Below, in pieces: positions 5,151 through 63,508 of a DNA stretch of 64,000 nucleotides; within the stretch, counting starts at the first letter, position 1, and every line of letters begins with the position of its first letter. The stretch comes from Letharia columbiana. Taxonomy: Eukaryota; Ascomycota; Lecanoromycetes; Lecanorales; Parmeliaceae. Made by a program: the position numbers and the translations under genes. The stretch spans positions 992,001 to 1,056,000 of the forward strand of contig NW_023501043.1 in the NCBI RefSeq assembly GCF_014066305.1, written 5' to 3'. Under the pieces are notes generated by a model. That model was not told the origin of the DNA and did no database searches. It saw only the letters and a program-made list of their open reading frames with translations.

Positions 5151-5459
5151 TCGAAAGAATGAAGCGATAAACCTTCAGCAGATGATTATTTAAAGGAAGA
5201 GTTCTTCTGATCAGAAATATCTCATCTACCCAACCTTCGTATGCTACCCAACCTTCCCGCTGTATTTAGTAGAGGGCAACGACAGGTGCCACGACACCAC
5301 AGTACGAGCATGGAGGTTTTGATTGGTTCCTATAGCGCCCACCATAAGATTAATCGTATCTACCCCCATTCCAACTTATCTTCGAACAGTCCCCCTCCGA
5401 CAGTCCCCCGTCCACACTAATGTGGCTACCGGCTATACCCGCAGCCACCCGGCTTGATA
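5151..5459. promoter_or_regulatory. Upstream region of the FHA kinase gene
   Basis: Ordinary base composition, no open frame of note. It would hold the kinase promoter because it is directly 5' of the minus-strand start codon. No specific binding site was recognised. The AT-rich tract begins just beyond it. Confidence 0.35.
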
Positions 5460-21860: not shown

Positions 21861-22165
21861 ATCAATATATATAATAGAATAAGGTAGGGCTGAGCTTGAA
21901 AACCTTGAATTTGTATGTGCAGCCAATCATCAATTCGGGTTCGCTACGCTCTTTGGTTAGACCGGCTGAGTCAGCCCGGTAGCCCTCCCGCGCCTCCCTC
22001 ATCAAAAATTTGTGTGTAGAAGTTTTACACTCTGAAATAAGCAGCTCCCTACGGATGCTATTTCTTCATAATTTCGTAAATTATAGAGCTCAGTTTGCGC
22101 TTTCTAACGCTGTAAAAATTATGAAGTTTGGCCTACTATTGGTGAATTAAATGAACATTCAAATA
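21860..22165 (+). repeat. Best preserved copy of the dispersed repeat
   Basis: Contains gaataaggtagggctgagct, then tgcagccaatcatcaattcg and ccctcccgcgcctccctcat. The same blocks recur, with C-to-T and G-to-A changes, at 7350-8089, 24125-24260, 25745-25990, 27090-27440, 27760-28130, 58600-58800 and 59225-59590. It has no coding capacity. It is useful as a near-ancestral reference for the family. Confidence 0.7.
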
Positions 22166-25739: not shown

Positions 25740-28700
25740 GTATCTTACGTTTATAATAGCGAGTAAATAAATTAGCGTTCGTAATTATTAAAATATTTTT
25801 TCTCTACTTTTAATTATTTAATAACTTTATAATTTCCGATTAAAATTTATTAACTTTTTTTTAAATTATAATCTATAACTTACGCTTTTTAATAATAATA
25901 AAATTTGAAAATTCGGTTTTATAATTCTTCAAAGGTATGGAATTCAAATATCGCTTATTAAAGTTCGCTTATCAAATTTGCGCGATATGTTAGACCTGAT
26001 GCTGTCATAGGCCTTAACGCTGCTTGCGCCAAGGCGCCGACATCGCATATGCTACGTTAGGGGTCTCTTTCAGCGTCCAGTTTCAATAACGTGCCCCTTA
26101 TGCTTAGGGGCTTAGCAGACATAGATCTACCTCGCATGCCCCGAAGTTTTAGTATCCCTTAGAGATTAGTTCTACTATCAAATATACTATTAAATTCTAT
26201 AACGACTCTACGTCTTTTATAGCCTATGCCCGCTAGCTAATCGTTAGTAAACTACGCTCTTATAGATAGCTCTAAATAAAGAAATTAATATATATTATTT
26301 AAACTTAAAATAACTTTTTAATTTTCTTTTTAATTTTTTAAATTTCTCTCTCTTTAAATTATAAAGCGTAAATTACGTATTTTAATAATCTAAAATTTTA
26401 AAAATTAGTCTTCTAATTATTTAAAGGTAAAGAGTTTGAATATCGCTTATTAAAGTTCGCTTATTAATTATTAAGAAAATAAATAACTAAATTATAAATT
26501 TATAGTAAAGTATAAAGATATTAATTATTCTATATATCTATAGAGTAGATATATATAATATTAAGCCACGCTAGGCTTAATTAAGTAATAGCTCTAAAGA
26601 AGACCTTAGCGTACGTTAATATAAATTTACTCGATAGTTCTAATTAAAAGAATAGATTATAAATTTAATTTATAAGCCTAAACTCGTATATACTAATATA
26701 TTTTAATATTCTTTTTATATAAAATAATATTAATAAAAATTTATTTGAATAAAATTTTCTAATAATTTAAATATTGCTTATTAAAGTTCGCTTACTAAAT
26801 TTACTTAATAGCTCTAATTAAAAAAAAACGATTATAAATTTAATTTATAGATTTTTACTCGTATATAATTAATATAAAATTAAGTTAAAAATATTAAATT
26901 TTATTAAGTAACTAATTTAATTAGTAATATATTTAATAATTAAAGTTTTAAATAATTATATACTATTAATTTATCTATATCTAATTCTTATAATATACTT
27001 TTAACTTAATAATATTAAAATATTTAATAATAGATATATTAATATATAATATAGATTTTTATTAAGGAAAATAGATAACTAAGTTATTAGTATATATAAT
27101 AGAATAAGATAGAGCTAAGCTAGAAAACCTTAAATTTATATATACAGCGGGCCGCAGCCAATTATAAATTCGTTAGATCTACGCTCTTTAATTAAATCGA
27201 CTAAGTTATCGCGGGTAAATAAATTAGCGTTCGCAATTATTAAAAAATCTCTTACTCTACTTTTAACCCCTTAATAACTTTACTATTTTCTATTAAAATT
27301 TTTAGATTTTTTTTTTAAATTATAGCCCGTAACTTACGCTTTTTAATAATAAAAAAGTTATAAAATTTAATCTTATAATTTTTCAAATGCATAGAATTCA
27401 AATATCGCTTATTAAAGATCGCTCTTCGAAGTTCGCTCGACAGCTCTAATCAAAAAACAGATATAGATTATTTAACTTTAGAATAACATTCTTATTTTCT
27501 ATTAAAATTTTTCGATTCTTCTTTTAAATTATAGAACGTAATGTGAACTTTTAGATAAAAAAGAATTTCTAAATTTAGTCTTATAGATATTTAAAGATAA
27601 GGAATTCAGATATTACTTACTAAAGATCGCTTATCAAAATTTACTCGACAGCCCTAATCGAAAACAATAATTATGAACTTATGAATTTAATTCATAGGTC
27701 TTTACTCGTTAATTTATAATATAATATAAAGATATTAATTATTCTATATATCTATAGAATAGATATTAGTATATATAAAAGAATTAGATAGAGTTAATCT
27801 AAAAATCTTAAATTTATATATATAGTTAATTATAAATTTAGAATTACTACGCTCTTTAATTAGATCGACTAAGTTAGCTCGCTAGTTCTTTCGAGACCTC
27901 TTATTAAAAAAATAGATATACGTTATTTATAAATAGAATAACTTTTCTATTATCTATTAAAATTATTTAATTTTTTTTTAAATTATAGAGCGTAGTTTAC
28001 GCTTTTTAACGCTTTAACAATTTCGAAATTTAATTTTATAATTATTGAAAAGTAAGAAACTTAAATATTACTTATTAAAGTTCGTTCGATAGCTCTAATT
28101 AAAAAATAGATATATATTATTTAATTTTAGAATAACTCCTTTTTCTATTAAATAATTTCGAGGTTTTTTATTATAAGATATCTTAGAACTATTTATAGAA
28201 TTACTAGCGTGAACTTAATATCATATATATCTATTCGCTATTTATATAGAATAATTAATATCTTTATATTATATTATATATATAAGTTACATTATATTAT
28301 TTCTTAGTATTTTTTTTAAATTATGAAATGTAATTTAGATATTTTAATTATTTAAGAATTTAAAAATTTAGTTCTATAATTATTTAATGGCAAAAAATTC
28401 AAATATCGCTTATTAAAGTTCGCTTATTAAATTTACTCGACAGCTCTAATTTAAAAATTAAGTTATAAATTTAATTTATAAACTTAAACTCGTATATAAT
28501 ATTAAGTTATACTAGTATTATCTTATTACTAGATAATCTTAATATATTATAATAATTTTTTATCTATTATAAATTTATAATTATATTATCTTTAAATTAT
28601 TTAAATATTATATTATCGCTATAAATAATTATTTTTAAATATTTAATAGAATAAAAGAATTTTATTTAAAATCTAATTTTTATCTCGATTAGATGGCTCG
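25740..28700. repeat. AT-rich, RIP-like tract
   Basis: No gene. Several decayed dispersed-repeat copies are readable (25745-25990, 26280-26460, 27090-27440, 27760-28130). A RIP-decayed family B LTR lies at about 28170-28310 in minus orientation. A less mutated insert at about 25988-26160 keeps CpG-rich sequence (cttgcgccaaggcgccgaca), so it arrived later or escaped mutation. Confidence 0.65.
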
Positions 28701-29066
28701 AGAATTAAAAGCTTAATATATAGATTATATGCGAAAGGCTGCATTAATACGAACGAAGGGCTGTCGAAGATTCGGAGTCAAATTGTGATACCGGGTTAAT
28801 TGTCATATAAAAGACCACATCGTTATAAGGCCTCTTTGCATATAAGATATCGTTTAAAATAACGGTTTTCAGACGTAGGCTATAATTAGACTGTAAGATA
28901 GGGGTCTTAGTAGTCTGCTAAGTAATGGTACTTAATTTTAGTAGGCCCCCAGGGTAAAATCAGAAGTATCCTCTTCGTAGCCCTCTCTATAGTATTTAAA
29001 TCTATCGATAATCGATTAAGAATAATAAGTAGTCGGAGTAGGTACTAGTATAGGCCACAGTCCCCG
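28701..29066. other. Intermediate-composition stretch, nothing recognised
   Basis: Partly mutated sequence. A block ttataaggcctctttgcatataaga near 28835 has a relative at about 34726 (ttataaggcccctttacata), so both regions share a decayed repeat. No gene or RNA is supported. Confidence 0.4.
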
Positions 29067-37803: not shown

Positions 37804-38603
37804 ATGGCGCAACGAGTGCTCGGCCTAACATATACTTCTGACAGCTTTCCAGCCCAGCTTGTCACTGTTGTCCCATCCAATGGCGACTTTCATCTGATCT
37901 TAGCGAATCATTACTTAAGCCCTGAAATTCGCTCTGAACTCAATGCGATTGGCTTGACGGGTAGTGCAGGTAATCGAAGGATATTCCCTACGTGTGAGAC
38001 TGCTCTGACCTGTTGCCAGTGAATCCTATCGTAGTTGACGACAGTGAGAGGGCTCCAGATCTTCACGATCTATCAGATCCAGGCCCGTCAAGCAGAGCCG
38101 ATGATCCACGGCACGACATCGATGAGTTGCAGCGTGCACTTCAGGTCGAGCAGGACAACAACAAATATCTTCTCCGGCAGAAAAATAAGCTTGTCAGACA
38201 GAACAAAAATCTTCTTGATGCACAAGAGCGGAAGAAACACGAGAGCGTCGGCGCCTGCGACGAGGCCGAGAGACAAGATTGGCTTCAACAGAAAGAGCCG
38301 TTCGATCTTTTGATACAGGAAAAAGAGCAAGCCGAGGCGTTGGGACGTCGATTGAGCAGCGAGCTTGCCACGGCCGAAACGACGATAAGACTCCTTCAGC
38401 AACGCCAGGTACCTGAGTGCCCAATATGTCGAGAGGTGGTGTGTTGCGGGATTACGCAGTGCGGACACCAGTTCTGCGATTCTTGTTTTTATCTCTGGTA
38501 CCAGGAGCAAGGCGCCAAAGGGGCCACTCAGACATGTCCCACTTGCCGGGCGTATTTGAATAATCTGAATGGGGATTTATTCATCAAGATGCACGGGACC
38601 TAA
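37804..38603 (+). CDS. RING-finger protein, probable E3 ubiquitin ligase
   Basis: Exons 37804-37969 and 38020-38603 are joined over a 50-base intron (GTAATC donor, ctctgacc branch, TTGCCAG acceptor), giving 249 residues. Residues about 90-185 are a coiled coil. Residues 189-231 are a C3HC4 RING: C-P-I-C, then C-G-H-Q-F-C-D-S-C, then C-P-T-C. All eight zinc ligands are visible. RING domains recruit E2 ubiquitin-conjugating enzymes. The substrate is unknown. The gene is convergent with the FHA-like kinase gene, and the two coding ends overlap by 27 bases (38577-38603). Confidence 0.8.
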
Positions 38604-40253
38604 TGAACTACCGTCCGGAGGAGGACGATCTGCGCGGACCAGATCCATCAGAGCTTCAGCGGCGGTAGGTCGGGTATGGGAATCCCACGAAAGCATAGTC
38701 TTCAATACAGAGGACACACTCGTCTCGCACTGCGCTAGAAATTGAAGGACAATTCGGTGATCTCTCTCTGAACGGAGACTTCTTCCAATGATCCAATCAG
38801 CTGGGAACCAAGACTGTAGAAGCGTATATGCAAGTAGCCATATGTCGATTTTTTGGTCGTACTTTTGATTTTTGCCTTTTTGGATTTCGGGAGGGAGCCA
38901 CTTCCACCCTGCTATTTCCTCAACAGTACTAGTTGTCGCTTGGTGTAATTTTCCAAAATCGCATATGCCAGCGTGCCTCGGTTCACGTGGGAAGTATAAG
39001 ACATTCATTGGGGTAATATCACGATGCATCCAGCCACGGCTATGAATAGCGACAAGGCCTTCTAGAAGTTGCTTGAACAGTAGGGTGCGCAAAGCCCAGT
39101 CCGCCTCTAGTTCCTCGTGCCATAGGTGCTCCTTGAAAGAGACTCCCCTTTCCATAAATAGATATACTTCCAACGGATAGAAGCCCGTTAGAGTACTTTC
39201 GGCTTGCGAGTTACACCAACCGTAAAAATGCACAATACCTGGAGAGTGACCAAGTGCTCCACTGATTTCGATCTCGGTTTTGACGGTCTGTGCTTCGATA
39301 TGTGATCTGATGACCAGCTTCTTGACCGCTCTGAGGTCTCCAGTTCGCGGGTGGAACCCTTCCAGCACAACCCCGAAAGTGCCGCTTCCCATGCCTTGTC
39401 TGAACACAGCCCAGGGGGTATGGATGTCGGAGTCGAAGGGAATAGCTGATATGCGTGTCTCGGGCACTTGCGCCTCACGTGCCATCAGCCATGCCTTTCT
39501 CTCCTCGAGATAGAGCTGCTCCTTTGCCGACGTAGTAACACAAAATTGAATATCGTAGCGCATACCTCCCACAAGGAAAGACGTTCGGGGACGATGCAAA
39601 CACTGCATCGAGCCATGCTTCATAAACTCGTCATCGAGAACTACGGGCTTGTGACGACATTGCGCAAAGCCGTCGGGACCACTGCTGGCTTGAGCCGTCG
39701 ATTCGAGCTCTTTCATATGATGACCCTCGCCGGCGTGGAGAATCCAGGCCCCGGATTCGATATTCATTCTCAAGAAAGCATGGGCGCTGGCGAGGTGTTT
39801 TCGGTGTCTAGAACTTGGTGCGGCGAGCAGAATATCGACATTTCGACTGCGGACGTTGTTGCCCACTCCCTTTCCGAGGACCCACTTGACCCCTTTGCTT
39901 AGTGGTGTACAGTCAAAATTCAGACGGAAGTAACCATGGTAGATGGGCACTTCCTCGTCGCTTGTGGTGTCCACTGTCGCGCCTTCATCAAGCTCAGAAT
40001 CGAATCCCTCAGTGGCGGAGAGGAGCCCCTTTTCGGTGACAACGATGAATTGCGCATGATGCTCGTCTAAATGGCCGTTGCGCTTTCTCACAGCCAGCTC
40101 ATGAAAGGCGACCGCAGCTGGCCCTCCTTTCGGTGTGATCTTCAAAATATCATTCACGGCCGTTTCCGAAACTCTCTCAACAGTGGGGGCAGAGACACGG
40201 GATACAGCTCGATCTTTTGATCCACTAGCTCTTGCGACGATGTGTGTATTCAT
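38577..40253 (-). CDS. FHA-like domain protein kinase (second kinase)
   Basis: Single open frame of 558 residues from ATG 40253. Residues about 105-240 resemble an FHA-like beta domain (W-V-L-G-K-G, R-N-V-D-I-L-L, S-A-H-A-F-L). Residues about 281-545 are a protein kinase: glycine loop G-M-G-S-G-T-F-G at 287-294, A-V-K-K near 309, catalytic H-R-D at 410-412 with D-I-T-P-M-N-V, D-F-G at 432-434 and P-P-E at 455-457. The catalytic residues are all present, so activity is expected. The plan (N-terminal FHA-like domain, C-terminal kinase, no intron) parallels the kinase at 3080-5150, but the sequences are clearly different. The stop overlaps the RING gene end. Confidence 0.82.
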   Translation of the reverse strand: MNTHIVARASGSKDRAVSRVSAPTVERVSETAVNDILKITPKGGPAAVAFHELAVRKRNGHLDEHHAQFIVVTEKGLLSATEGFDSELDEGATVDTTSDEEVPIYHGYFRLNFDCTPLSKGVKWVLGKGVGNNVRSRNVDILLAAPSSRHRKHLASAHAFLRMNIESGAWILHAGEGHHMKELESTAQASSGPDGFAQCRHKPVVLDDEFMKHGSMQCLHRPRTSFLVGGMRYDIQFCVTTSAKEQLYLEERKAWLMAREAQVPETRISAIPFDSDIHTPWAVFRQGMGSGTFGVVLEGFHPRTGDLRAVKKLVIRSHIEAQTVKTEIEISGALGHSPGIVHFYGWCNSQAESTLTGFYPLEVYLFMERGVSFKEHLWHEELEADWALRTLLFKQLLEGLVAIHSRGWMHRDITPMNVLYFPREPRHAGICDFGKLHQATTSTVEEIAGWKWLPPEIQKGKNQKYDQKIDIWLLAYTLLQSWFPADWIIGRSLRSERDHRIVLQFLAQCETSVSSVLKTMLSWDSHTRPTAAEALMDLVRADRPPPDGSSLGPVHLDE

Positions 40254-40440
40254 CGCAGGCTTCTACTCGCAAGAATTTGTCGAGGATTGATAATTGGGGT
40301 GTGTAGACTCGTACGGAGTAGAGTACCTTGGTACGTGTTCGAGCGACCCCGGAAAAATTTATTGCCGGACGCCGGAGGCGCAAGAGGCTCAGATATCTTT
40401 GAGACACTTCACTAACAGCAATGAGCACTCGCTGTCAGCC

Positions 40441-42089: not shown

Positions 42090-42178
42090 CAACCTTGCAA
42101 ACCATCTGAAAAACAGACTACCACATGGTAGCAGAGGGAGCAAGTCACCCTACGAACTATGGTTCAACAAGAAACCGG
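42090..42178 (+). repeat. Inverted duplicate of a copia integrase segment
   Basis: The plus strand from about 42098 to 42180 (accatctgaaaaacagacta and on) is the reverse complement of about 42512-42590 in the adjacent copia remnant, almost without change. The duplicated piece then continues into sequence for an acidic linker (S-S-D-D-D-D-E-E-D-H), which normally follows integrase in these polyproteins. Confidence 0.75.
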
Positions 42179-44850
42179 ACATATCTAGCGACGACGATGA
42201 TGAGGAGGACCATAGAAGGCCTACACCGGACACCAGTGGGGGCGATGTCTGCTCGCATGGAGTTGTAGGCCATTGGGAACGAAGTTTGAGTCATTAGTTG
42301 GACTCCCTTGCGGTCCTCATAAAAAATGACATTCGTAGGCCATTCGAATCGATTGTCCCGAGGGTCATAAATCCGGTACTGAGTGGATGAATGGTAACCG
42401 GTATATATGCCCTGGTAGGCCACAGCATGTAGCTTACTTTCTCGTTTTTCTTTTGGTAGGTAAACCAAGCATAGACAACCGAAGACTTTTTCGTGACTCA
42501 GGTCCGGTTTCTTGTTGAACCATAGTTCGTAGGGTGACTTGCTCCCTCTGCTACCATGTGGTAGTCTGTTTTTCAGATGGTTTGCATAGATTGCGGCCTC
42601 TGACCAGAAGCTCATGGGTAGGCCTGACTGGCTAAGCATGGGTCTCATGAATTCAGTCAACGTCCTGTTGAATCGTTCTGCGATACCATTCTGGTATGGG
42701 GTGTAGGTAGTCGTGAATTCCATAGTGATACCTCGTTCCTTGAGTGTATCCTCGACTGACTTGTATTCTTGTGCATTGTCGGTTCTGACTGACACCACTC
42801 CTCTTACCCCAGCCATTTTATCAATCATAATCACATTCCTAAGGATGAAGGCGTAGATCTGTTTCTTTGATGTAATGGGCTCGAAGTTCGATTGGTCAGT
42901 GGCCTCATCGATGAGGGATACAAACCACTTGCTGCCCCCCACAATGCTGCCCACGGGATATGGTCCCCAGAAGTCGGTGTGCATCCGAGCTCCTGGTACT
43001 GTTTCCTTTGGCCTGGGGTCCTTGTTGATCTGTTGAACCATTTTCGTGGAGTCACATGTGTCACATTGGAATCCTTCCGATGGTTTCATTTCCTCTACAC
43101 CTCTTGCGTAGAGATGTAGGTCCTTCAGGCGATACGCTCCAGTATGGCCCAATCGTTGATGCATTAGTCGAAAATGATCGACTTGTCCTGCTTGTTTCGT
43201 AGGTGTAGGTGTGCTTCCAATGGGAGGTCCCGACTCCCTAGAAGCGAATGCTCTATCAGATGTCGATGTGGTCAACTGATATAGGCCATTCCTCGCACAG
43301 CCCCTTGCTACCGTCTTGCCTGTGGATGTGTTGATGATTTCAACACCCAGGCTTCCGAATCGTACCTCAAAACCCTTTCGATCCAGTGCTATGATAGATA
43401 GCAGGTTACCACCCATTCCTGGGACATACAGAACATCTGTCATGGTCTGCATGTGGTTGCCCATACGAATTCAGATGGTTCCCCTGCCTGTCGCCATCAA
43501 CTCGCTTTGATTGCCGAATTCCACTGCTTTCGAATAAGGCTGCCAGTCGGTAAATAGTTCCTTGTTTGGTGTCATATGGCGAGTCGCTCCGGAGTCTATT
43601 AGCCAGCTACTGTTTCCTGAAAAGTCTGCTATCATGGAAGAATTCTTCACTGATAGTCCACTGTCGGTGGGCTCTGGCTTTTCCCTAGCCATCCATGAGC
43701 CTTCCTTTCGACTGTATGCATCGCTTACATCGCTAGCATCACCGTCGGTGTCTGATTTGTCTGCTGCTGCTGCAGCATGGTCTGAGCGTCCTCGCCCACT
43801 ACCTTTGGATGTCTTTGAACCCCTTGGTCGATCCTTTGATTCACGATTTCGCCCATCTGAGTCCTTCGCCCCATGGTTCTTATCCTTTTCGTCCTTCTCA
43901 TCCGGACACTCCCTCTCGTAGTGCCCGGTTTTCCCACAGCCATAGCATTCTACCTTGCTCATGTCCCTGGGAGGCTTTTGGCTTGACTGGCCCTTTCGTC
44001 CATTGCGTGCAAGTAGGCCTTTGTCCTTGGCCTGTCTGTCTTGCTCCACGGTTCGTAGGCATTCCACAGCCATTTCGGTGGTGAGATTCTCGTTAATCCC
44101 CAAATTGTATTTAGCCACATCGAACTCATTCCCCTGGCAAGCGTTCATAATTACCGTCGCCATGGTGAGATCGTGTGGTGCACAGGCTGGATTTAAGTCC
44201 GTGACTTCGTCCTGTAGGTTTCGTAAATCTGCTACCATTTGATCGATCGTTTGGTCTGCTGATTTGGTGTACCCGAGGAACTTCTGCAGCATGATAGGAA
44301 GACGTCCTTTGCCACTCAATCCATGAATTCTTCGAAGCTTGTCCCACATGGATTTGGAAGTGGTAAGGTGGGCAATATGACTCTTCTGATTTCGGTCAAC
44401 GTTACCCCTGATCAGTGTAGCGATCCACCTGTCCAAAACGGTCCATCGTTTAGCTGGCTCCCTACCGAATGGTGTGGGCATCAATAGGTCCTCTGACACT
44501 ATTTCAAAGATGCCACGTCCCTCGAGGAACTGTCGATGGTCCTGGGCCCATAGGTGGTAGTTCAAGTCCTTCAGAACTTCCATTTTGACGTGCGGTTTGC
44601 TGATGAGTCCCTTATCCAGTTCCTCCAACAAATCGACTGTTAGTAGATTGTCCAAATCGGGTAGGAGGTCCTCCTCCCCCTCTTCTTCCTCCCTTCCCTT
44701 ACCTTTTGGATGGTAAGGGTCCCCAGTTGGTGACGCTGTCTGTTCAGCGGATGAACGGTCTCGGCCCCCAGCCTGCTGCAGCCCTGCCCCCGAGTGTCCT
44801 TCGGTAGGATCCTCGAGGCGGCTGCGTCCTCTGGTACTCAGGTGGGCCAT
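42157..44850 (-). pseudogene. Copia-type retrotransposon gag-protease-integrase, truncated
   Basis: Frame from ATG 44850 to the stop at 43471 (gag and protease), continuing in the same phase to 42157 (integrase). One TGA at 43471-43473 separates them and may derive from CGA. Gag has a central helical domain and a CCHC zinc knuckle C-Y-G-C-G-K-T-G-H-Y-E-R-E-C. Protease has the active-site W-L-I-D-S-G-A-T. Integrase has H-Q-R-L-G-H with a C-x2-type zinc site, D-F-W-G-P, D-N-A-Q-E-Y and the catalytic E in G-I-A-E-R-F-N-R-T. Reverse transcriptase, RNase H and the 3' LTR are missing, so the element ended by rearrangement near 42180. It is otherwise little mutated. Confidence 0.88.
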
Positions 44851-44897
44851 AGCGGTGGTAGGTAGGTGTAGCGGAAGACTGAAACCTCGGTCAATGG

Positions 44898-44915
44898 CTG
44901 ACCGGGCTCATAACC
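44898..44915 (-). other. Primer-binding site, half-tRNA type
   Basis: The minus strand directly after the LTR reads ggttatgagcccgg. This complements the anticodon arm (gggctcataacc) of initiator-Met tRNA. Copia elements typically prime from such an internally cleaved tRNA. Confidence 0.6.
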
Positions 44916-53119: not shown

Positions 53120-55719
53120 CTACTGCCACTCGTCAGTCCCGAACAGCCTTTCCTTCAACGCCAGTGCTTGTCGATGCATCTCTTCGGCCTCATCGTATTT
53201 GCCTTGGCTGCTCAACACCGAGGCCAGATTATTCATACTCGTCAGCGTATCAGGATGCTTCTTCCCCAGCACCCTTTCCTTCAACGCCAGTGCTTGTCGA
53301 TGCATCTCCTCGGCCTTTTCGTATTTGCCTTGCCTGCTCAACACCTCTGCCAGATTGTTCATGCTCGTCAGCGTATCAGGATGCTCCTTGCCCAGCACCC
53401 TTTCCGTTAACGCCAGTGCTTGTCGATGCATCTCCTCGGCCTCATGGTATTTGCGTTGGCTGCTCAATACCGAGGCCAGATTGTTCATGCTCCTAAGCGT
53501 AGATGGATGCTTCTTCCCCAGCACCGTTTCCGTCAACGCTAGTGCTTGTCGATGCATCTCCTCGGCCTCATCGTATTTGCCTTGGCTGCTCAACACCGAG
53601 GCCAGATTGCTCATGCTCGTCAGCGTAGATGGATGCTCCTTGCCCAGCACCCTTTCCTTCAACGCCAGTGCTTGTCCATGCATCTCCTCGGTCTCATCGT
53701 ATTTGCCTTGCCTGCTAAACACCGAGGCCAGATTGTTCATGCTCGTCAGCGTAGATGGATGCTCCTTGCCCAGCACCGTTTCCCTCAACGCCAGTGCTTG
53801 TCGATGCATCTCCTCGGCCTCATGGTATTTGCGTTGGCTGCTCAATACCGAGGCCAGATTGTTCATGCTCGTCAGCGTATCAGGATGCTCCTTCCCCAGC
53901 ACCGTTTCCCTCAACGCCAGTGCTTGTCGAAGCATCTCTTCGGCCTCTTCGTATCTGCTTTGCCTGCTCAACATCAAGGCCAGACTGTTCATACTCGTCA
54001 GCGTAGATGGATGCTCCTTGCCTAGCATCTTCTCTGTTTTTCTAAAATGAAACACTTGCATCTTGTACGCCTCGGACCATCGTCCTATCCTGGCCAGGAA
54101 GCCTTCCATCTCATCGATCATACCGAGTCGACCCGTCGCAAGCTCGTCCAGTGATTCATGCAGGGGAGAAAACATATCAAAGCTAGCCATCACGTGTGGC
54201 ACCAACCGGAGTTGATGGCTAGGGTCCATCTGATCCTTAGCGATGGCATCCGTCATAAGCTCTAGGGCCAGACTGCTCAGCTGCCGTTGCCCGTCCGCCT
54301 CCAACCGATCTTGTCCCCATGCATGTACGAGCTTATGTATCGCATAGCTCTTTTGATCCGGTTTCCACTGAATCAGAGAATAGCTTTGAAGCGTCTCGAA
54401 CGCCGATTCAAGCTCATATACTGTCCTTTGCTGCCCAGAGAAGAGGAATAACTGCCACGTCTCATTAGACGATGTCATGGCCTCTGATGGTTCCGCAACA
54501 CGAGTGGGAGCGCTCGCGAGGACACCGGCGCGGTCCCGATCGAAAAGACCCAGAAAGATATCCTCAAAGTTCACAAACGCCAACAGACTCAGCAAGCGGG
54601 CCGCGGCTGGATTGTGATTCTCAATCGCCTCGAACGATGCTTCCCATGTGCTCAAAACGCTTTCTCCGTATTGATGTATATGCCGCTTGGCCGGCCGTCG
54701 AAGCAGTTCTTTTCGCCGCTGCTGGTACTCGGGGAGATACCTCCTGATATCAGACGACAAGCGAGCCGTCACCGACACATACGAGCCAGCCAGGGTGATC
54801 GCCAAGGCCAAATACCCGAGCTCTCTCACGATTCCATCGACTTCTTTTATCACATCCGGCCCTTCCTCCGTCAGCTTCGCGTACCTTTGGAACAGCTCTA
54901 CCGCCTCCGACGGCTCCATATCCGCCACTTCTACCGCGTCCAGCGTTGTTATCTCCTTAGCTGTCGAGCTCCGCGAGGTGATAACAACATGCACTCCGGG
55001 CGTATCAGGCATGAAATATCCCAGGTCGATATAGGATTTGTCTCGATCGTTGTCGATGGTGTCCGCACTGTCCAGAACCACCAGCCATCGCCCCTCACGA
55101 CCGTGGAACCAGCGCTTAACCGCAGGCACCGCGTCCTCCACCTTCACTACCTCTTGACCCATATATGTCTGCCGACCATAGAGGAGTTGGTAGATTTGGA
55201 CATAGTCGCGCTCGATCGACTCCTTCGATCCAGCTTCGATCCAGAACACGGCAGCGTAGTCCCGTCGATATTCGCGGATGTAGTTCAGCATCAGCTGCGA
55301 CTTACCCGCTCCACCGAGCCCCCACAACACCAGGATCCGCACGTCTTCCCTCCTGTCATCCTTGAGGTCGTGTAACTGTTCTTTGATCTTTTGGTGCAAT
55401 CGCGGTCGCGAGACGAATTTGGGGACTGGTTGGAGGGACGAGCGGGCATAGTGGCCCTCATAGGTGCTCGGAGGGATCTGAGCAGCCGCCGTCGGATCTG
55501 AGCACTATCAGCTTGTGTTCTGTCCGTATTGGTGGGTGTCTAACTGATGGTGAGTCCCTGGAAACTACCCTGGAAGATCTGGCTGTTGGAAGCATGGGTA
55601 TTTCCAGTGTGAACGTGTCCCAGGTTCGACCCTAACTGAAAGCCTTGATTGTTGTGGCCCGCAAAGCTTGTCATGGGATTGGCAGTTGTCAGGCCTGATG
55701 CTACGGTCTCAGGTGGCAT
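53120..55719 (-). CDS. NLR with N-terminal GFQLG amyloid-type motif, NB-ARC and seven TPRs
   Basis: Exons 55719-55545 and 55497-53120 are joined by a 47-base intron (GTTAGA donor, GCTCAG acceptor), giving 850 residues. Residues 24-32 are N-Q-G-F-Q-L-G-S-N, a pseudo-palindromic motif with the G-x-Q-x-G core of RHIM-like amyloid motifs. P-loop G-L-G-G-A-G-K-S is at 118-125, with V-V-L-D-S-A-D near 190 (Walker B), V-V-I-T-S-R (sensor) and L-G-Y-L-A-L-A-I (GxP-like). Residues 554-850 hold seven kinesin-light-chain-type TPRs of 42 residues, nearly identical to each other. NLRs of this plan oligomerise on ligand recognition and pass an amyloid fold to an effector sharing the motif. The matching effector candidate is at 62608-63508. 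The frame is intact. Confidence 0.9.
53130..54020 (-). repeat. Seven 126-base repeats encoding TPRs
   Basis: Each unit starts with H-P-S/D-T-L-T-S-M and ends G-K-E/K. Conservation at DNA level is high between units, with differences concentrated at a few codons (for example R/G-K-Y-D/H/E and T/K/R-E-R/T-V). The long plus-strand open frames over this stretch are antisense by-products. Confidence 0.9.
55624..55650 (-). other. Pseudo-palindromic amyloid-type motif of the NLR
   Basis: Encodes N-Q-G-F-Q-L-G-S-N (residues 24-32). The same N-x-G-F-Q-L-G-x-N pattern is at 62650-62676, and a G-to-D variant is at 61220-61246. Confidence 0.75.
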
Positions 55720-55835
55720 GTCACCGCGTCTGCACCGACTCCTCGAGGTAGGCAGGATTGAAAGGCGTCGAAGATGTTCGTTGGATGGAGCAGGCTTCGC
55801 TTATCCTCAGCCTTGTTTTTTGCTCTCGCTTGTCT
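55720..55835 (-). promoter_or_regulatory. Upstream region of the NLR, shared with the decayed NLR
   Basis: The region directly 5' of the start matches 61030-61136 in reverse orientation (ggctgaggataagcgaagcc and on). Both NLR genes therefore have the same presumptive promoter and 5' untranslated region. The similarity ends where a transposon starts at 55843. Confidence 0.6.
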
Positions 55836-55842
55836 TGGCCAA

Positions 55843-57464
55843 TAATCGTATCTACCCCCATTCGCGCCATACCCTTATTTACGCCATCTTAAATCCGATA
55901 AATCCGACATAAATAGCTACCACTACCACTCATTCAAATAGCCTACTATCACAGTCTATTATAATAACCAATACTACGATATTATAGTCGCCGTCTATAG
56001 ATCTATTATAGTAGGTATTCCTACCCTAAATTCAAATGTGACTTACTTAAGTCCAATTAAGAAGAAGACTACTACGCCTCTCACATTAGATCTATTACTA
56101 GTCTCAGAAAAGGCCCCACGCAGTGGGTCTGAGTAGGAAACCCTGCCAAGCCTCGTTTTTTTGGTAGTTTGGCTGATATGAGATATTTACCCCTGGGTAT
56201 ATATCAGCATTAGTAAGTTCCGGGGTAGCTTTGCCCCGGAGCGAGCTACCCCGAAGCTACCCCGAAACTATTTTAAAGACTTAATAATCTATAACTTCGA
56301 TATATTATTACTCGATAACCGAACCATCACTTTTTATAAAAATTTATAAATATATTCTTAATATATATAATAATAATATATTAAATTTTCTAAATTTGAA
56401 GTTCGAAGTCTTTAAAGTTATTAAGCTTTTTAATTTTTTTTCTAAAAATCTTAAAATAATTAAATAAATTAAATAAATTAAAAAATAATATTAATAAAAC
56501 TTTATATATCTTTACTTATATCTATAAATTATTAAATAGTAATTTAAAATTATAAATTATTTAATAGATTATCTAAGATAATAGCTTAGATAAATAAATT
56601 TTAAATAAAAATATAAGAAATATTAATGTGTAAAATCTGGCCCAGAGAATTCTATAATAATATTCTTAAATAGACTTATAAATATAACGAGTATTTTAAG
56701 ATTATTTTTAGAGTTTTGCCGGTGCACGTTAAAAAATAAGAGGGGGGTTAAAAATATAGTTTTTAAAACTCTAATTTAAATCTTCTAAAAATAATTAATT
56801 AAGCTATTTTATTAAAAATCGAAAAAAAAAATCTAATTCTACGGTATTTAAATAGTTATTTTATAAAAGACTATTTATTTCTTTATTAGAATTCTTAATA
56901 AAAAGTTATATATAAAAGAAACTGTTTATTTTCTATTTCGGTCAATTTTGGTGAGGATCCCATACAAAATAACGGTTAATGTAGCGATTCCAGGGTTTTC
57001 TACTCAGACTCTAAGGGAAGGGTATGACGAATTTTCGGCCCGGAAAAAAGGTTTTTCCGACCTATCACTACCACCAACCCTTTCGAATAGAGTCTAAGTA
57101 CTGAGACTAATCTATTACTACTATTAAACCTCGCTCTATTATAGTAATAATAGTAAGATAAAAGAGATAAAAGAGATAAAAAAGTAATAGAAGAAGAGGT
57201 AGAAGAAGAAGAGGTAGAAGAAGAAGAGATAGTAGAAGAAGAGGTAGTAACGGTTTTTTCAAGATATAATAGGCCGATAAAGTCTAAAAAATAGTAATTT
57301 AGACTCTTCGATATAGAAGCCTTAATAGTAATAAAGATTAATACTATTATACTAGTTTGCTATATAAATTTAATAAAAGATAGGCATTTTAATATTAGAT
57401 CGAAATTATCGGATTTAAGATAGCGTAAATAGAGGTATAACGCGAATAGGGGTAGATACGATTA
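55843..57464. mobile_element. TIR element copy 2, split by a Mutator-like element
   Basis: The left end taatcgtatctacccccatt and right end ...ggtagatacgatta are inverted repeats, matching over about 60 bases including atcttaaatccgataa. The interior is related to 12238-12787 (agaagaagaggt repeat, tagtaacggttttttcaaga). It is interrupted at 56099-57109. No transposase frame is visible. It sits 124 bases upstream of the NLR start codon. Confidence 0.78.
56099..57109. mobile_element. Mutator-like non-autonomous element with 9-base duplication
   Basis: Starts tagtctcag and ends ctgagacta, flanked on both sides by atctattac (56090-56098 and 57110-57118). The nine-base duplication is typical of Mutator-type insertion. 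A subterminal inverted pair (gtctgagtaggaaaccctg near 56129, read in reverse near 56988) adds structure. The interior is partly AT-shifted and has no transposase. Confidence 0.75.
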
Positions 57465-57745
57465 GTGGAAAGCTTGCCGAGTATGATTCTTAGGGTGATC
57501 ACTCCTAACCCTTCGAGGGCTCTCGGAAGGCTTCTGCCGAAGGGGTTGTTAAAGCAAGCTCGAAGTATAGATAATTTGAGTGATATTTGATGGACTTCGA
57601 GCTTGATTTAACAACCCCTTCGGCAGAAGCGCACGGAGAGCTCCGAAGGGTTGAGTGGTCTTACTCTGAGAATTGAGAGACATATTTCCAAGGGGAGACC
57701 CCCTAAATCCTCCTTCCCTCCGAGGGCTCTCTGACGCAAGCTCGA
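57464..57745 (+). mobile_element. Hairpin element copy 3 (truncated)
   Basis: Starts tagtggaaagcttgccgag at the end of the TIR element. Arms at about 57507-57565 and 57594-57652 form a long stem. The stem bases differ from HP1 and HP2, but in pairs. The 3' half of the element is missing. Confidence 0.65.
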
Positions 57746-60184
57746 GTGTAATCGAACTTTAATCGAAATACTAAGTGTACTCTACGTAGTAATCTTACAA
57801 TCATTTCTTATTTTCTAAATATATTTATAAGAACTCTACTTAATCTCGTCTATATATGTTATGAGATATCTTAGAAATACCCATAGAGTTACTAGCGTAG
57901 GCTTGACACCGCATATATCTACCCTATAGGCTCATAGAACAATTAATATCTTTTATATCATATATATATATGAGTTAAACCATAATAATTTCTTAATAAT
58001 ATAGAATTATTTAAAAGCGTACGATCTAATCTATAAATCTACTAACTCGCTTTTTTATTATTGTTAGGAACAGTCTCCACGGGGGCTCTATAGGGCCTCT
58101 GCGGGCAGGTATTTAGGTCCAAATAGAGGTATCTGACTGTTAAGCGCAGACACCCCCGGAACCAGCTTTTTTAGCTGAGTTGCTAACAATCATATACTAT
58201 TCAGATAATAAAGAAATCGAAGAAAGTAGATTTTAAAAAAGGAGATGTAATATACGTACACTCTCTTTTAATACATATATACTCCCTCTCAAATTCGATT
58301 AGCTTTCGCGCGGCCGCTAGTCATATAAGATATAAATCTCGTATATAGTCTTCTAGGAAATATTATCGAGACTCTTAATTGTAGTAAGATAAGCCTTTTT
58401 AAACCTCTTCTAATAAAGTTTAAAAGATTAAATATTTTCAAATCGTCGAATAGTAAGGTCTTTAGATTATTCTTCTATGGCGATAGCTAATTAACTAGCT
58501 ATCCCCTCTCGTTACTACTAGAAATACGTTCATCGAACTCGAATATTTACTATCTACGAGTATTAGCTATCTAGTCTTTCTATAGCTAAAAGATATTAAT
58601 ATATATAAAAGAATAAGATAGGGCTAAACTAGAAAACCTTAAATTTATATATATAGCCAATTATTAATTCGAGGTTATTACGCCTTTTAGCTAGATCGGC
58701 TAAGTTATCGCGGGTAAATAAATTAGCGTCCGTAACTATTAAAATCTCTTACTCTACTTTTAACCCTTTAATAACTTTACTATTTTCTATTAAAACAAGT
58801 AAAGGCCCATGAATTAAATTTATGGAGTTGGATTTTTCTAAGTCAAATCGAATTTTAGCTCTAGCCCTAAGTCAAATCGAACTCTGATCGCTTGCTATAC
58901 GTTTTTGACCTACATACAGGCACATATGTGCGGAGAGAGGCGCGCTAAGGCCTAATTAGGAAGGTGTATCGAGTGTGAAGGATTAATCCGTAATAATTGC
59001 CCATAACAAATAGAGAAAGATCATATTCTTATTCTAGTGATGATGCTTTATATATGCACTTCGTATATATACACCTTATATATATAGTATTGACGTCGCT
59101 ATTAAGTAAAAAGCAGTGATATTAAGAATATTTAAGATATTTAGAATATTTGCCAAGTATATCAAGAGATTTAGCGCATGTGTAGGACTTTTAATATTAC
59201 TCTTCGTACTCTTATCTATATTTAATTAATATATATAAAAGAATAAGATAGAACTAAGCTTGAAAATCTTAAATTTATATGTGTAGCCAATTATCAATTT
59301 AGGGTTATTACGCTTTTTGGCTAGATCGGCTGAGTCATCGCGGGTAAATAAATTAGCGTCCGCAACCATCAAAATCTCGCCCTCCCGCGCCTCCCTCATC
59401 AAAAAAATAGGTGTACATTATTAACATATAGAATAACTTTTTTGTTTTCTATTAAAATTTTGAGATTTTAATTTTTAATTTTGAAGCGCTGTTTGTGCTT
59501 TCCGAATTTTTAAGAATTTTGAAATTTAGTCTTATAATTATTAAAGCGCAAGGAATTCAAATATCGCTCATCAAAGTTCGCTCGACAGTCGGACAGCCCT
59601 TATCAGGACCGGTACAGATGTAATATCAATGTAGGTATGTTGAATAAGATAACTAAGGTACCGAACTATGTAGGTGGGAAGGAGGCATGATATGGTAGGG
59701 GATGCCTCCGCCAAGGCCCGCTAGCCATAGGGCTGAGGGGTGTGTCAAGGGTACGCTCGTAACAGCCTTAATCAGGTACACATTATTTAATTTTAGAATA
59801 ACTTTTTTGTTTTCTATTAAAATTTTAAGATTTTTTTTTTAAATTATAGAATAAAATATGGGCTTTCAGATAAAAAAAGAATTATTAAATTTAGTTCTAT
59901 AATTATTAAAGTGTAAGGAATTCAAATATCGCTCACCAAAGTTCGCTTATCAAAGATCGCTTACCTACTTACTCGATAGCCCTAATTAAGAAAGTAATTA
60001 TAAATTTAATTCATAGGCCTTTACTCGTATATTAATAAAAGATTTAAAAAAAAAATTATATTAGCGAGTAATTTTAATTTTAATTTAGCGATAGCGAGAT
60101 ATAAGAAGAATTATAAGAATAATAATATAGTAAGTATACCTATAGTAGGATTTTAGATAAGAGGGATGCTAGCCCCAATGCTAA
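57746..60184. repeat. AT-rich tract with LTR relics and dispersed-repeat copies
   Basis: No gene. Readable pieces are a RIP-decayed family B LTR (57848-57996, minus) and a possible solo LTR at 58062-58198 (tgttaggaacagt...gttgctaaca, flanks attat and atcat). There is also a reverse copy of 23880-24145 at 58795-59010, and dispersed-repeat copies at 58600-58800 and 59225-59590. A less mutated insert at about 59598-59755 contains ggcatgatatggtaggggat. Confidence 0.6.
58062..58198. repeat. Probable solo LTR, 137 bases
   Basis: tg...ca ends with TGTTAG/CTAACA symmetry. Flanking pentamers attat and atcat differ by one C/T change, as expected if the duplication was hit by RIP. GC-normal, unlike its surroundings. 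Confidence 0.45.
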
Positions 60185-60910
60185 TTTTCTAATTGGAAAG
60201 CTTGCTTTCTCATTACTCAAGACTGAAATCACAAAATGTTCGACAACCATAAATTTAAGGTTGGCCAATCAGATCCTCGAATTTCACGATTTCGAGTCTA
60301 AAACACACCTTATTTCTTCATTTTCGTTCTAAACACGGGTACATCCAAAGAGGAAGCACCATAAGGCTGAACCTCGAACATCAACTTTGTTAATCTATTC
60401 TATTTGATTCCTTTAACGTTACGTAATAAATGATAATAAAGTAAATTTATAGAGTTATAGAGTTAATTAAACGCTTTCAAATAAAGTAGCGAAGACGAAA
60501 TTTGATAAAGTATTCGTAAAGATATACTAAAAACTAAGATTTTTATTCAAATTATCGAGCTTGCGAGAAGATCCCCTCCGGGACCTCGGAGAGGGTTAGG
60601 GGGTTTCAGGGTCTCCCAGTATATCAACTATCTCTCTCGATTCTCAGGGATAGATCCTTTAAAATTCCCTTAACCCTTTGACTCTTTAGGGTTGAGCTTC
60701 TGTCGAGGGGCTGTCAAAGCAAGCTCGAAATCAATCAAATATCACTAAAATAATCAAATTTCGAGCTTGCTTTGACAGCCCCTCGACAGAAGCTCTCGGA
60801 GAGCCCTTAAAGAGCCCCCGAAGGGTCCGAGGGGTTTTAGGGGATTCCCTGAGAATCAAAATTAGGTAAAACCAGTACTCGGCAAGCTTTTCACTACTGG
60901 AAGCCCCGCC
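60185..60910 (-). mobile_element. Hairpin element copy 2 (HP2)
   Basis: Reverse orientation copy of 29768-30545, full length. The stem arms (60674-60729 and 60758-60825) keep pairing although several stem bases differ from HP1. Its outer end abuts the tRNA-like relic and the 5' region of the decayed NLR. Confidence 0.75.
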
Positions 60911-60949
60911 CCAGCACATATTTTCCCAATGATTACGAAAATAGGGGTA

Positions 60950-61010
60950 AGGGCGGGGTACGAATACGAACTGATGACCTAAACGCTTGAGCTAGTGGGA
61001 TCAAGCAATT
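60950..61010 (-). other. tRNA-derived relic
   Basis: On the minus strand tagctcaagcg resembles a pol III A box, and agttcgtattcg 22 bases later resembles a B box. The normal spacing and anticodon arm are missing. It could be a deleted tRNA or a SINE head. A functional tRNA is not supported. Confidence 0.3.
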
Positions 61011-61029
61011 TTCAAAGCACACCCATTAG

Positions 61030-61136
61030 CGAGAGCAACAAGCAAGGCTGAGGATAAGCGAAGCCTGCTCCGTCCAACGACCATCTTCGACGCCTTCAAC
61101 CTGCCTACCTCGATGAGTCAGTGCGGACATGGTGAC
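61030..61136 (+). promoter_or_regulatory. Upstream region shared with the intact NLR
   Basis: Inverted match to 55720-55835, ending at the ancestral start ATG at 61137. Confidence 0.5.
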
Positions 61137-62617
61137 ATGCCACCTGAGACCGTAGCATCAGGCCCGACATGCTCAGCATGACAACTGCCAATCCCATGAC
61201 AAGCTTTGCGGGCCACAACAATCAAGACTTTCAGTTAGGGTCGAACCTGGGACACGTCCACGTCAGGGTTGGGAGTCAGCCAGGAGGTTCGTCAACCCTT
61301 TTCGATACTGCTAGTTATACAGCTGGTGAAGATGCTACAATTGCTAACAGCACGTGGGGATCTAGATCGAACACCTCCGACCTCTCGATTCCACAACAAA
61401 CACTTCGAGGTGCCCCGCAACCCCAGCTCTGTCTTCACTGGACGAGAAGAAATAGGCAAATGACTACAAAGTCACTGTCTACCGTCCACCACCCTGAACT
61501 TGCAGCAACAACAGAAGAGATTTGTCATTTACGGGCTGGGTGGATCAGGCAAGACGCAGGTATGCCTCAAATTTGCGGAAGATTATCGTGAAGAGTAGGT
61601 GTTATTTATTATTATATTTCAGGTCTGCACTGACGGTGCTTCAGATTTTGGGGTATATTTTGGATCGATGCGAGCAGTATAGAAAGTTTCGAGCGAGGTT
61701 ATCTACAGGTTGCCAAGGTCTGCGGTCTAGAACCTCACGTGGATGCTGTCAAACGATGGTTATCGAATATATCCGAGTCATGGGCCCTGATCTTAGATAA
61801 TGCTGCTCGTCTGGATATCTCTTTCCGGTGGGGAATCGAGGGATCGTCTTGATCACGACTCCCGGATTGCCAGATTCATGCTACCGTCGGGTCATACGAG
61901 CTGGGCGCGATGGAACCTGATGAAGCTGTTACCTTGATCCTCAAGACGACCGGTCTCAGTGATCAATTAGACAAGTCGATACGGAAGAGTGCGGAGCGGG
62001 TAGTCACGACCCTGGGATATTTGGCGCTAGCGATTGTTCAGGCTGAGGCGGTGATTCGACAAGGTCATTGTAGGATGGAGGAACACTGCACTATTTACTA
62101 TCAGCGTCGACGCGAACTTCTGAGTCAGAAAGCTGTGCAAGATGGTGAAGATTATCGATACACCGTGTACACGACTTGGGAGGTTTCGCTGAAAATAATT
62201 GAGGAGATATCGAGCGAGGCCGGGCAAGACGCTATAGAATTACTCCAGATCTTTAGCTACCTCCACCACGATGGGATTTCTGAAGAGATATTCTACCGAG
62301 CATGGAAAACTTTACGGAGCGACCCGCCTTCGGAATGGACGCTCTCACATCAATCGGACATACTACTTGACAAATCAAGTCAGAAATGAAGTGTCTACCC
62401 TCTTCGAGCAGCGGTGTCAATTTTGCTATCATTCTCTCTCATCAATCGTAATAAAGATCATTTGATTTCCATTCACCCGCTCGTGCACACATGGACTCGA
62501 GACCGGTTGAGTCCCTCGGACGAGGAAACGACCTGGACACAGACGACTTCAACGGTGGCCCTTTCGATACCGTGGACCTTTGAGACCGTAGACTACCGAT
62601 TCCGAACTCAAGGTTGA
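61137..62617 (+). pseudogene. Second NLR (NB-ARC), decayed, no TPRs
   Basis: The 5' end corresponds to the intact NLR, but a 14-base insertion just after the start shifts the frame. An internal ATG at 61169 reopens it. The motif is N-Q-D-F-Q-L-G-S-N at 61220-61246: G of the G-x-Q-x-G core is D. Downstream pieces in different frames are the P-loop G-L-G-G-S-G-K-T (61533-61556), F-W-I-D-A-S-S and W-A-L-I-L-D-N-A (to 61803), M-E-P-D-E-A-V onward (61910-62389), and H-P-L-V-H-T-W (62473 onward). At least three frame shifts separate them. The NB-ARC resembles the intact NLR in plan but is diverged, and the C-terminal repeats are absent. The locus ends convergent with the Helo-like gene, overlapping it by about 10 bases. 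Confidence 0.8.
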
Positions 62618-63508
62618 GCACCCCATTTCAAATTGCTAATGAAGCCCGTATTTTGACCTAGTTGGAAACCCGAATTGCTTGCACCTGAAAAGTTGACATG
62701 AACAGACCCAGAATCAAGTTGCGGAGTGGTCTCTGCTAGCCATTTTCTTGCTGTTGTACAGGCCTGCTGGCTTTGCTCAATAGCCTTCTTCTCGGCTTCT
62801 AGAGCCAGTTGGTCCTCCTCGAGTACTCTTTTCTGTCCCTCCCGAACCAGTAGACTGCTATCCCCATCAGGTTGGCTGTGTTGATCATGAGATATGGCGG
62901 AGACTTTAACGGCAAGACTTTTGAGGCCTTTAGTAATTTCCTCAATATGCACCTCAAGGTCCGGCTCCGTTTCGCTGATTTTATCGTCAAGCTTCTTTTT
63001 TATTCCATCAATGGCTTCGGCGGTCAAGTTAGAAGTAGTTCTAGAACCAAGACATATTAATAAAGATCGGAATGTTTGAATATCAGACCACTCACAGCGT
63101 GAAAAGGTCTAGTGCGATTGCAATGGTAGCTTTGTACGATGCGAGCTGGCCCTTGTATCCGTCAATGGTCTTTCCTTTATACTGCATTTTGACCCAATCT
63201 CTCGCGCTTCTGCTGCCATCGGCTGAATGCGTGGTACACTGTTGAATGAGCGACCTCAGGTTGAAACAGACCATGCCACACTGATGGAGCGGGTAGCGGA
63301 TGTCTTCAAACTTCGAGGCATCGCTCGTGACTGTCTTGTGGATAGAGCTGAGAACCGGATCGAGGGCTAGCAATTCGCTCTTCAAGTCTCGGATCGTTTG
63401 AGGAGCTTTTTGGATGCTGATCACAAGGTCGTAGACAGCCTTGCTTGTCTCGAATGCGAATGTTGCGATGCCCAGTAAACCGGCTGTGACTCCAATCGCT
63501 TCAGCCAT
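62608..63508 (-). CDS. Helo-like (HELLP/PigL_N) protein with C-terminal GFQLG motif
   Basis: Exons 63508-63096 and 63040-62608 are joined by a 55-base intron (GTGAGT donor, TTCTAG acceptor), giving 281 residues. Residues about 1-140 match the fungal Helo-like N-terminal domain (PF17111, PigL_N). It has a glycine-zipper-like start (I-G-V-T-A-G-L-L-G-I-A), then a helical bundle with K-A-P-Q-T-I-R-D-L-K-S-E-L and L-D-P-V-L-S-S-I. Residues 140-245 are helical and charged. The C terminus carries N-S-G-F-Q-L-G-Q-N (residues 260-268), the same pattern as the N terminus of the NLR at 53120-55719. In HELLP-type proteins the N-terminal domain damages membranes once the C-terminal motif forms amyloid on an activated NLR template. 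The frame is intact and no key residue is visibly lost. Confidence 0.82.
62650..62676 (-). other. Pseudo-palindromic amyloid-type motif of the Helo-like protein
   Basis: Encodes N-S-G-F-Q-L-G-Q-N. Matches the NLR motif at 55624-55650 in the five core residues and both flanking asparagines. Confidence 0.75.

Follow-up and report, generated by a model that had tools for sequence, protein, structure and literature searches.

The closest described relatives of the locus reported here are the pnt1/hellp pairs of fungi. In the excerpts of PMC7885112 cited here, PNT1 of Podospora anserina is a nucleotide-binding oligomerization domain (NOD)-like receptor (NLR) that combines an amyloid motif of the PP class with an NB-ARC domain and tetratricopeptide repeats (TPRs), and it is encoded beside the HeLo-like executioner HELLP; the PP core is given as NxGxQxGxN in an excerpt of PMC9815663, and a motif-modelling paper names the class PP/ses_B (excerpt of PMC8086366). 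HET-S/NWD2 and HELLF/FNT1 (HRAM class) follow the same logic, i.e., an NLR motif templates the effector motif, but differ in motif class, and the same excerpts of PMC7885112 report that no cross-seeding was detected between their motifs and PP. Here, we analyzed a 64-kb stretch of the Letharia columbiana genome (contig C8, 992001-1056000; hereafter, the window, in which positions are counted unless a contig is named), with searches run against the genome of 52.2 Mb in 161 contigs. The window holds an intact NLR gene and a HELLP-type effector gene that share the PP motif, together with a decayed second NLR. This architecture is that of the published pnt1/hellp pair, and the locus belongs to that kind. 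With a probability of roughly 80%, we read it as a cell-death locus with amyloid signalling of the PP type whose receptor has been exchanged for another, the intact NLR being a recombinant that took its PP cassette from the decayed NLR.

The intact NLR gene (53120..55719, − strand) consists of exon 1 (55719-55545), a 47-nt intron (55544-55498) and exon 2 (55497-53120), and it encodes a chimeric protein of 850 aa with the PP motif, the remnant of a native N-terminal motif, an NB-ARC domain and TPRs. The intron, with donor A/GTTAGA, was chosen because its splicing reproduces the sequence of a relative from Lepraria (P0016); the donor GTAGTT was dropped, as it is the A/GTTAGA model that agrees with P0016. 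The Pfam scan and the homologue search were run on the GTAGTT model, which is 8 residues shorter, and this first splice model scored 36.8 bits for NB-ARC (PF00931; approximately 54707..55390, − strand, as placed from residues) and 388 bits for TPR_12. The TPR array (approximate limits 53150..54068, − strand) is made of near-identical 126-nt direct repeats; of seven copies in register, the outermost is at 62% and the others at 82-100%. A sequence-only reading of this DNA had treated a TPR sensor in place of WD40 as a departure; this does not hold, as PNT1 and FNT1 of Podospora are already NB-ARC-TPR proteins (excerpts of PMC7885112), and, because PNT1 is a published PP/NB-ARC/TPR NLR beside HELLP, the TPR sensor is the normal form. 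The distance from the start of the intact NLR to the stop of the effector is 6.9 kb, i.e., within the 20-kbp neighbour criterion of PMC9815663 (as excerpted).

The effector gene (62608..63508, − strand), whose direct tail-to-tail neighbour is the decayed NLR, is composed of exon 1 (63508-63096), an intron (63095-63041) and exon 2 (63040-62608), a structure backed by the homologues P0002 and P0004 in tblastn searches, and its 281-aa product has a HeLo-like domain followed by a C-terminal PP motif. The PF17111 (HeLo-like) profile search proposed in the sequence-only reading returned 154.5 bits (cut-off, 27.2). Genome-wide, the effector ranks first among 34 matches at E ≤0.01 (20 over cut-off), and it is the sole one of the 34 that adjoins a match to the PP-motif profile, Ses_B. 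A sequence comparison of the effector with the PDB returned one match (E 1.4), which was unconvincing. We found 15 effector homologues (P0001-P0015), including those of Psora crenata (83% identity), Stereocaulon virgatum (80%) and Teloschistes peruensis (73%), and the homologues from these three genera carry both Pfam families. Seven of the 15 models reach the motif, and GFQ[LVI]GQN is present in all seven, with the full NSGFQ start in six and P0012 one residue short there. The window sequence is of filamentous-fungus type, and the named organisms closest by protein in the effector and intact-NLR homologue searches, namely Psora, Stereocaulon, Teloschistes and Lepraria, are lichen-forming fungi. 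The effector homologues in the first three may thus point to a PP pathway in this group. Among the matches listed with names, effector and NLR homologues have locus tags that do not lie side by side in other lichens.

In the spliced models, residues 24-32 of the intact NLR (55624..55650, − strand) are NQGFQLGSN and effector residues 260-268 (62650..62676, − strand) are NSGFQLGQN; the decayed NLR (+ strand) has the G-to-D form NQDFQLGSN, all as had been noted from the letters alone. The broader proposal made there, a PP-class pairing of a fungal NLR with a HeLo-like protein, in which the motif is N-terminal on the NLR and C-terminal on the effector and has a G-x-Q-x-G core like that of the receptor-interacting protein homotypic interaction motif (RHIM), is borne out by the matches to Ses_B, PF17111, NB-ARC and TPR; the suggestion of a possible recent motif variant falls away, as the core is the published NxGxQxGxN. 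A six-frame scan of the window found N.GFQLG.N twice, N.[GD]FQLG.N three times and the looser N.G.Q.G.N twice, with a random expectation for the last of 0.03 per window (mean of 60 Markov-1 random sequences). Specifically, against the Pfam Ses_B profile (PF17046; cut-off, 23.2 bits), the intact NLR scored 29.9 bits over residues 1-60 and 24.3 bits as a whole protein (Pfam scan, first splice model), and the decayed copy, at 20.3 bits, fell below the cut-off. In the motif-profile search that had been suggested, the NLR lies above the Ses_B cut-off, the effector lies slightly under it in hmmscan (21.9 bits for the whole protein and 23.0 for the C-terminal part), and no sigma or HRAM profile of Pfam was among the matches listed at E ≤1 (the best 25 of 47 for the whole NLR, and all for NLR residues 1-60 and the effector), such short profiles being weak.

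Across the genome, Ses_B produced four matches in a scan made exon by exon, so that a motif split by an intron could escape it. Three of them belong to the locus (29.8, 25.4 and 20.7 bits, two above the cut-off, with the effector at 25.4), and these three top matches of the genome lie within 7.1 kb. The fourth, at 15.7 bits, is on contig C26 and reads NHGVQVGTY, which is the PP core except for the last residue; it sits in a 45-aa frame (C26:592063-592176; 15.7-16.7 bits) ~0.3 kb upstream of a 771-aa NLR frame with NPHP3_N (82.2 bits) and NACHT (39.2 bits), and it may represent a diverged PP-like motif that belongs to a different receptor, one with no effector linked to it. A wider search for PP that used the effector C-terminus as a single sequence found only the effector itself.

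The intact NLR changes its relationships abruptly within the motif exon. An inverted repeat of ~220 bp (55609-55830/61029-61261) carries this exon and covers the same parts of both NLRs. On the side of the intact gene (55609..55830, − strand), the cassette includes ~110 bp of 5′ flank, the start region and the PP motif, and ends at a junction placed at ~55606-55612 by inverted repeats, alignment and 20-base windows; the probable donor copy (61029..61261, + strand), delimited by inverted repeat and alignment, is the 5′ end of the decayed NLR. Counted per 20 bases, the two NLRs are identical at 16-20 positions from 55820 to 55621, at 12 in the junction window and at 4-9 from 55600 to 55441. In comparison, the intact NLR shares 0-13 positions per 20 bases with two paralogues on contigs C9 and C8 from 55900 to 55601, and 12-20 from 55600 to 55201, and downstream of the junction (from 55608 downwards) it is 87% identical over 400 bases to both of them (C9:192558-192964 and C8:1243196-1243596). 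The genome search found the cassette at two places and the receptor side at three, each count including the gene's own. Both paralogues have a different 5′ flank and the start MQASHLDVRQ.G.HFGNTNAL.SQIFQGNFYGLTI, without PP. Behind its PP motif, the chimera keeps the second half of this native motif (SQIFQGSFQGLTIN type; 55546..55614, − strand, identified by protein match to the paralogue motif and DNA alignment), which matches residues 13-35 of the paralogue motif at 70% identity (E 0.00125). For the intact NLR, 298 relatives were found, and none of the 120 that are listed has a PP core ahead of the P-loop; 32 of these have at least 79 aa in that part, and the rest are too short or have an unrecognised P-loop. 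Judged from these sequences, the intact NLR is a recombinant, with a body that evidently did not bring the PP motif.

The native motif has three matches in the genome, the third being the remnant within the chimera; all are in the intact-NLR family, and no partner protein carrying it was found in the genome. The start of P0016 (Lepraria neglecta) is of the paralogue type in a slightly different form. We also observed that a conserved short N-terminal NLR motif with the core H-Q-x-G...FG...FQGNF.G.TI is present in the C9 and C8 paralogues, P0016, P0109, P0111, P0116 and P0129; it is common to NLRs of lichen fungi and of more distant ascomycetes, no effector partner for it was found in the genome, and it may be an undescribed signalling motif. 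Within the intact-NLR family, P0095 (Lepraria neglecta OEA41_002029) has a VQIGDRQY-type motif, as on NLRs with the body of the decayed gene, before the same FQGSQIFQGNFHGLTIN stretch, and is a second candidate motif swap with nearly the same join. In a tree of 61 of the 122 rows (short search), the intact NLR groups with P0018 and, further out, with P0019 and P0021 (support 82-90); the tree says little on the order of motif changes because the models of P0018, P0019 and P0021 start inside exon 2.

The order of events that we infer begins with an older PP-bearing NB-ARC-TPR receptor placed tail to tail with the HELLP-type executioner. Ectopic recombination would then have placed a copy of a ~220-bp 5′ piece of this receptor (5′ flank, start region and PP motif) on an NB-ARC-TPR receptor unrelated to it, at the expense of the recipient's 5′ flank and of roughly 15 residues at the start of its N-terminal motif. 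The donor would have decayed afterwards, and the frame of the chimera stayed open. In a working model from the studied pairs, ligand binding by the TPRs would oligomerise the NB-ARC domains, the PP motifs of the oligomerised receptor would stack into an amyloid seed, this seed would template the PP motif at the effector C-terminus, and the templated effector would use its helical domain to attack the plasma membrane and kill the cell. What the sequences themselves show is the genes, the motif, the chimeric join and the decay.

The chimera differs from its relatives in its state of preservation. Its frame is open over 850 codons, with a full NB-ARC domain and TPR array; within the stretches searched, frameshifts interrupt the C9 paralogue, which shows no TPRs, and exon 2 of the C8 paralogue could be traced over only 97 codons. 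No further close paralogue was found in the genome, the next being at 33%. Under simulated neutral drift of 3, 5 and 6.5%, exon 2 of the chimera remained stop-free in 6.3, 1.2 and 0.6% of runs, respectively (2,000 runs each; the rates are assumptions, and the simulation covers stops with frameshifts left out). Within the cassette pair, 11 of 108 sites differ in the flank and 2 of 111 in the coding part (Fisher p 0.0097), with a 14-nt and a 2-nt indel (16 gap columns) outside these counts. This contrast between flank and coding part is what one would expect if the motif had been constrained during much of the period after copying.

Between the head-to-head 5′ ends of the two NLRs lies a 5.2-kb, multi-copy, AT-rich repeat block (55840..61020; 33% GC), recognised from genome matches, dinucleotide indices and an inverted repeat (55839-55912/57395-57468). 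Its indices resemble those of repeat-induced point mutation (RIP; TpA/ApT 1.18, second index 0.74), on the chimera side it abuts the cassette at the upstream end, and its 421-base end segment has 98 match rows genome-wide, many of which are opposite-strand matches of the same places because the segment is partly palindromic. Palindromic units with 48-nt arms (57519-57566/57594-57641) were also seen in the block. The RIP-like block at the cassette edge, the dead donor, the dead paralogues and the loss of the donor ATG from the chimera would all be expected if the whole locus were dying, with the chimera a by-product of transposon-driven rearrangement, signalling lost and the effector alone kept, perhaps for the NACHT-type NLR on C26, upstream of which the divergent PP-like motif lies. 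We consider this improbable, given the open frame with its complete domains, the low score of the C26 motif and the distribution of the differences between the chimera and the C9 paralogue, which number 50, 39 and 98 at codon positions 1, 2 and 3, a third-position excess averaged over the time since the paralogue split.

Next to be weighed is the direction of the transfer. The decayed NLR (61178..62605, + strand), traced by a homologue search and by tblastn with P0136, P0137 and P0151, bears the G-to-D motif and is broken at several places: its frames are disrupted from the motif to the NB-ARC part, a stop stands ahead of the P-loop, and a break near 61850 and a stop near 62388 follow; its similarity ends at about the stop codon of the effector, and no TPR part was found with these three queries. 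Its best relative is P0136 from Wetmoreana (54% identity, 99% query coverage), which has PP (NSGFQLGAN) at the N-terminus followed by the same body and TPRs, and whose alignment to the decayed gene takes in the PP motif and continues through NB-ARC. Because this best relative has PP on the same body, the decayed NLR is probably the older PP receptor, and it is the likelier source, as far as such comparisons reach, of the PP cassette at the locus. If instead the intact NLR had been the source and the decayed gene the recipient, the canonical G in the intact core, as opposed to D in the decayed one, would be readily understood, as would the rarity of PP on the decayed body, on which P0136 alone carries it among 120 listed of 844 relatives, 52 of the 120 having 79 aa or more ahead of the P-loop. 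However, the similarity between P0136 and the decayed gene continues past the PP core (residues 1-36), and the sequence of the intact NLR passes into a native motif that its own paralogues and P0016 also have, so that a reverse transfer appears very unlikely.

Even less credible is an ordinary inherited pnt1/hellp pair, in which PP was always on the intact NLR and the likeness to the decayed gene reflects old common descent. Architecture and motif do fit the published pair, but the NB-ARC bodies of the two NLRs are only ~33% alike, compared with 13 differences at 219 aligned sites of the 5′ block, and the abrupt switch of identity, the relatives of the receptor body with another N-terminus in the same genome and the native-motif remnant left in the chimera mean that the junction already contradicts this explanation. 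That the nonapeptide is shared by chance or through low complexity, with no amyloid function, can practically be dismissed: the motif is short and its profile had no matches among PDB sequences at E up to 10, but N.GFQLG.N occurred in none of the 60 Markov-1 random windows, the genome's three top Ses_B matches cluster at this locus, and the effector-side motif is conserved in every testable homologue.

Several observations weigh against a PP receptor replaced by cassette transfer and kept in service. The intact NLR, 6.9 kb off, is not the immediate neighbour of the effector, and the effector is slightly below the curated Ses_B cut-off in hmmscan, though above it in the genome search. Because most listed models of the intact-NLR relatives lack exon 1, only 32 of the 120 give a real test of whether PP is missing from the receptor body. 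PP has moved among donor-type receptors too, since only P0136 has it and several other top relatives of the decayed body, among the matches listed, have a VQIGDRYY-type motif. The 14-nt indel lies in the coding part of the cassette and speaks against strict constraint there; moreover, it removes the donor's first ATG in the chimera, and translation must therefore start at an upstream or downstream in-frame ATG. Finally, as the weak C26 match adjoins a NACHT-type NLR frame, the locus may not hold the only PP-like receptor.

Elsewhere in the window, we noted two protein kinase genes (PF00069) on the − strand, one at 3083-5174 in two frames (114.9 bits, and 20.3 bits, under cut-off, in the second) and one at 38580-40262 (101.6 bits) with a long N-terminal part. 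Remains of a copia-like retrotransposon (42160-44907, − strand) include a Pol SH3-like domain above cut-off and an integrase core slightly under it (42160-43470), with a zinc-knuckle stretch, judged by eye, in the adjoining frame. Other very AT-rich blocks lie at 6001-8000, 20001-22000 and 26001-29000 (16.5-23.2% GC in 1-kb windows), the first two with RIP-like indices. A tRNA scan found none.

Amyloid signalling predicts that any receptor with the right short motif can command the matching executioner, and this locus seems to be a natural instance. On a broader view, to which we give even chances, the amyloid motif with its 5′ flank would act as a transferable plug: a ~220-bp cassette copied onto another NLR would put a different sensor on a conserved executioner, the old sensor being retired and the output kept. 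P0095, joined at almost the same point, is a second candidate, so that fungal cell-death receptors may repeatedly be rewired through the exchange of motifs at this exon. With a single genome preserving the donor, the junction and relatives of the receptor parent, the birth of a wiring between receptor and executioner becomes testable, and the locus supplies a natural motif pair for cross-seeding, including a natural G-to-D variant of the core. In the open-licence part of PubMed Central, we found no account of a cassette with an amyloid motif passing from one NLR to another where a single genome preserves donor, parent and junction, nor any of PP signalling in lichen fungi.

Compared with the described clusters, the locus resembles PNT1/HELLP of Podospora anserina and CgPNT1/CgHELLP/CgSBP of Chaetomium globosum in that an NB-ARC-TPR NLR carries PP N-terminally and a HeLo-like protein carries it C-terminally, and it resembles PNT1/HELLP in having a single short intron per gene and both genes in one locus; the NLR and effector motifs are 32% identical (32-residue stretches), and the excerpts of PMC7885112 from which these comparisons are drawn give 32-48% within PP clusters. 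Unlike in PNT1/HELLP, a dead PP receptor lies between the effector and the intact NLR, which is chimeric and 6.9 kb off, and unlike in the Chaetomium globosum cluster, no third PP gene, such as the lipase SBP, was found by the exon-by-exon Ses_B scan. Exon trading among NB-ARC-TPR receptor genes is also described in brown algae, where exon shuffling is said to make a diverse repertoire (as cited in PMC10197012 and PMC12258605); the citing sentence and title make no mention of an amyloid motif. In fungi, highly similar NODs (80-99%) with different N-terminal domains have been ascribed to fusions of relatively recent date (Dyrka et al. 2014, PMC4986451, in the passages cited here). In comparison with those swaps, the piece moved here is an amyloid motif of ~20 residues with its 5′ flank, and the donor, the receptor paralogues and the junction are all found in one genome, with the join at the executioner's own locus.

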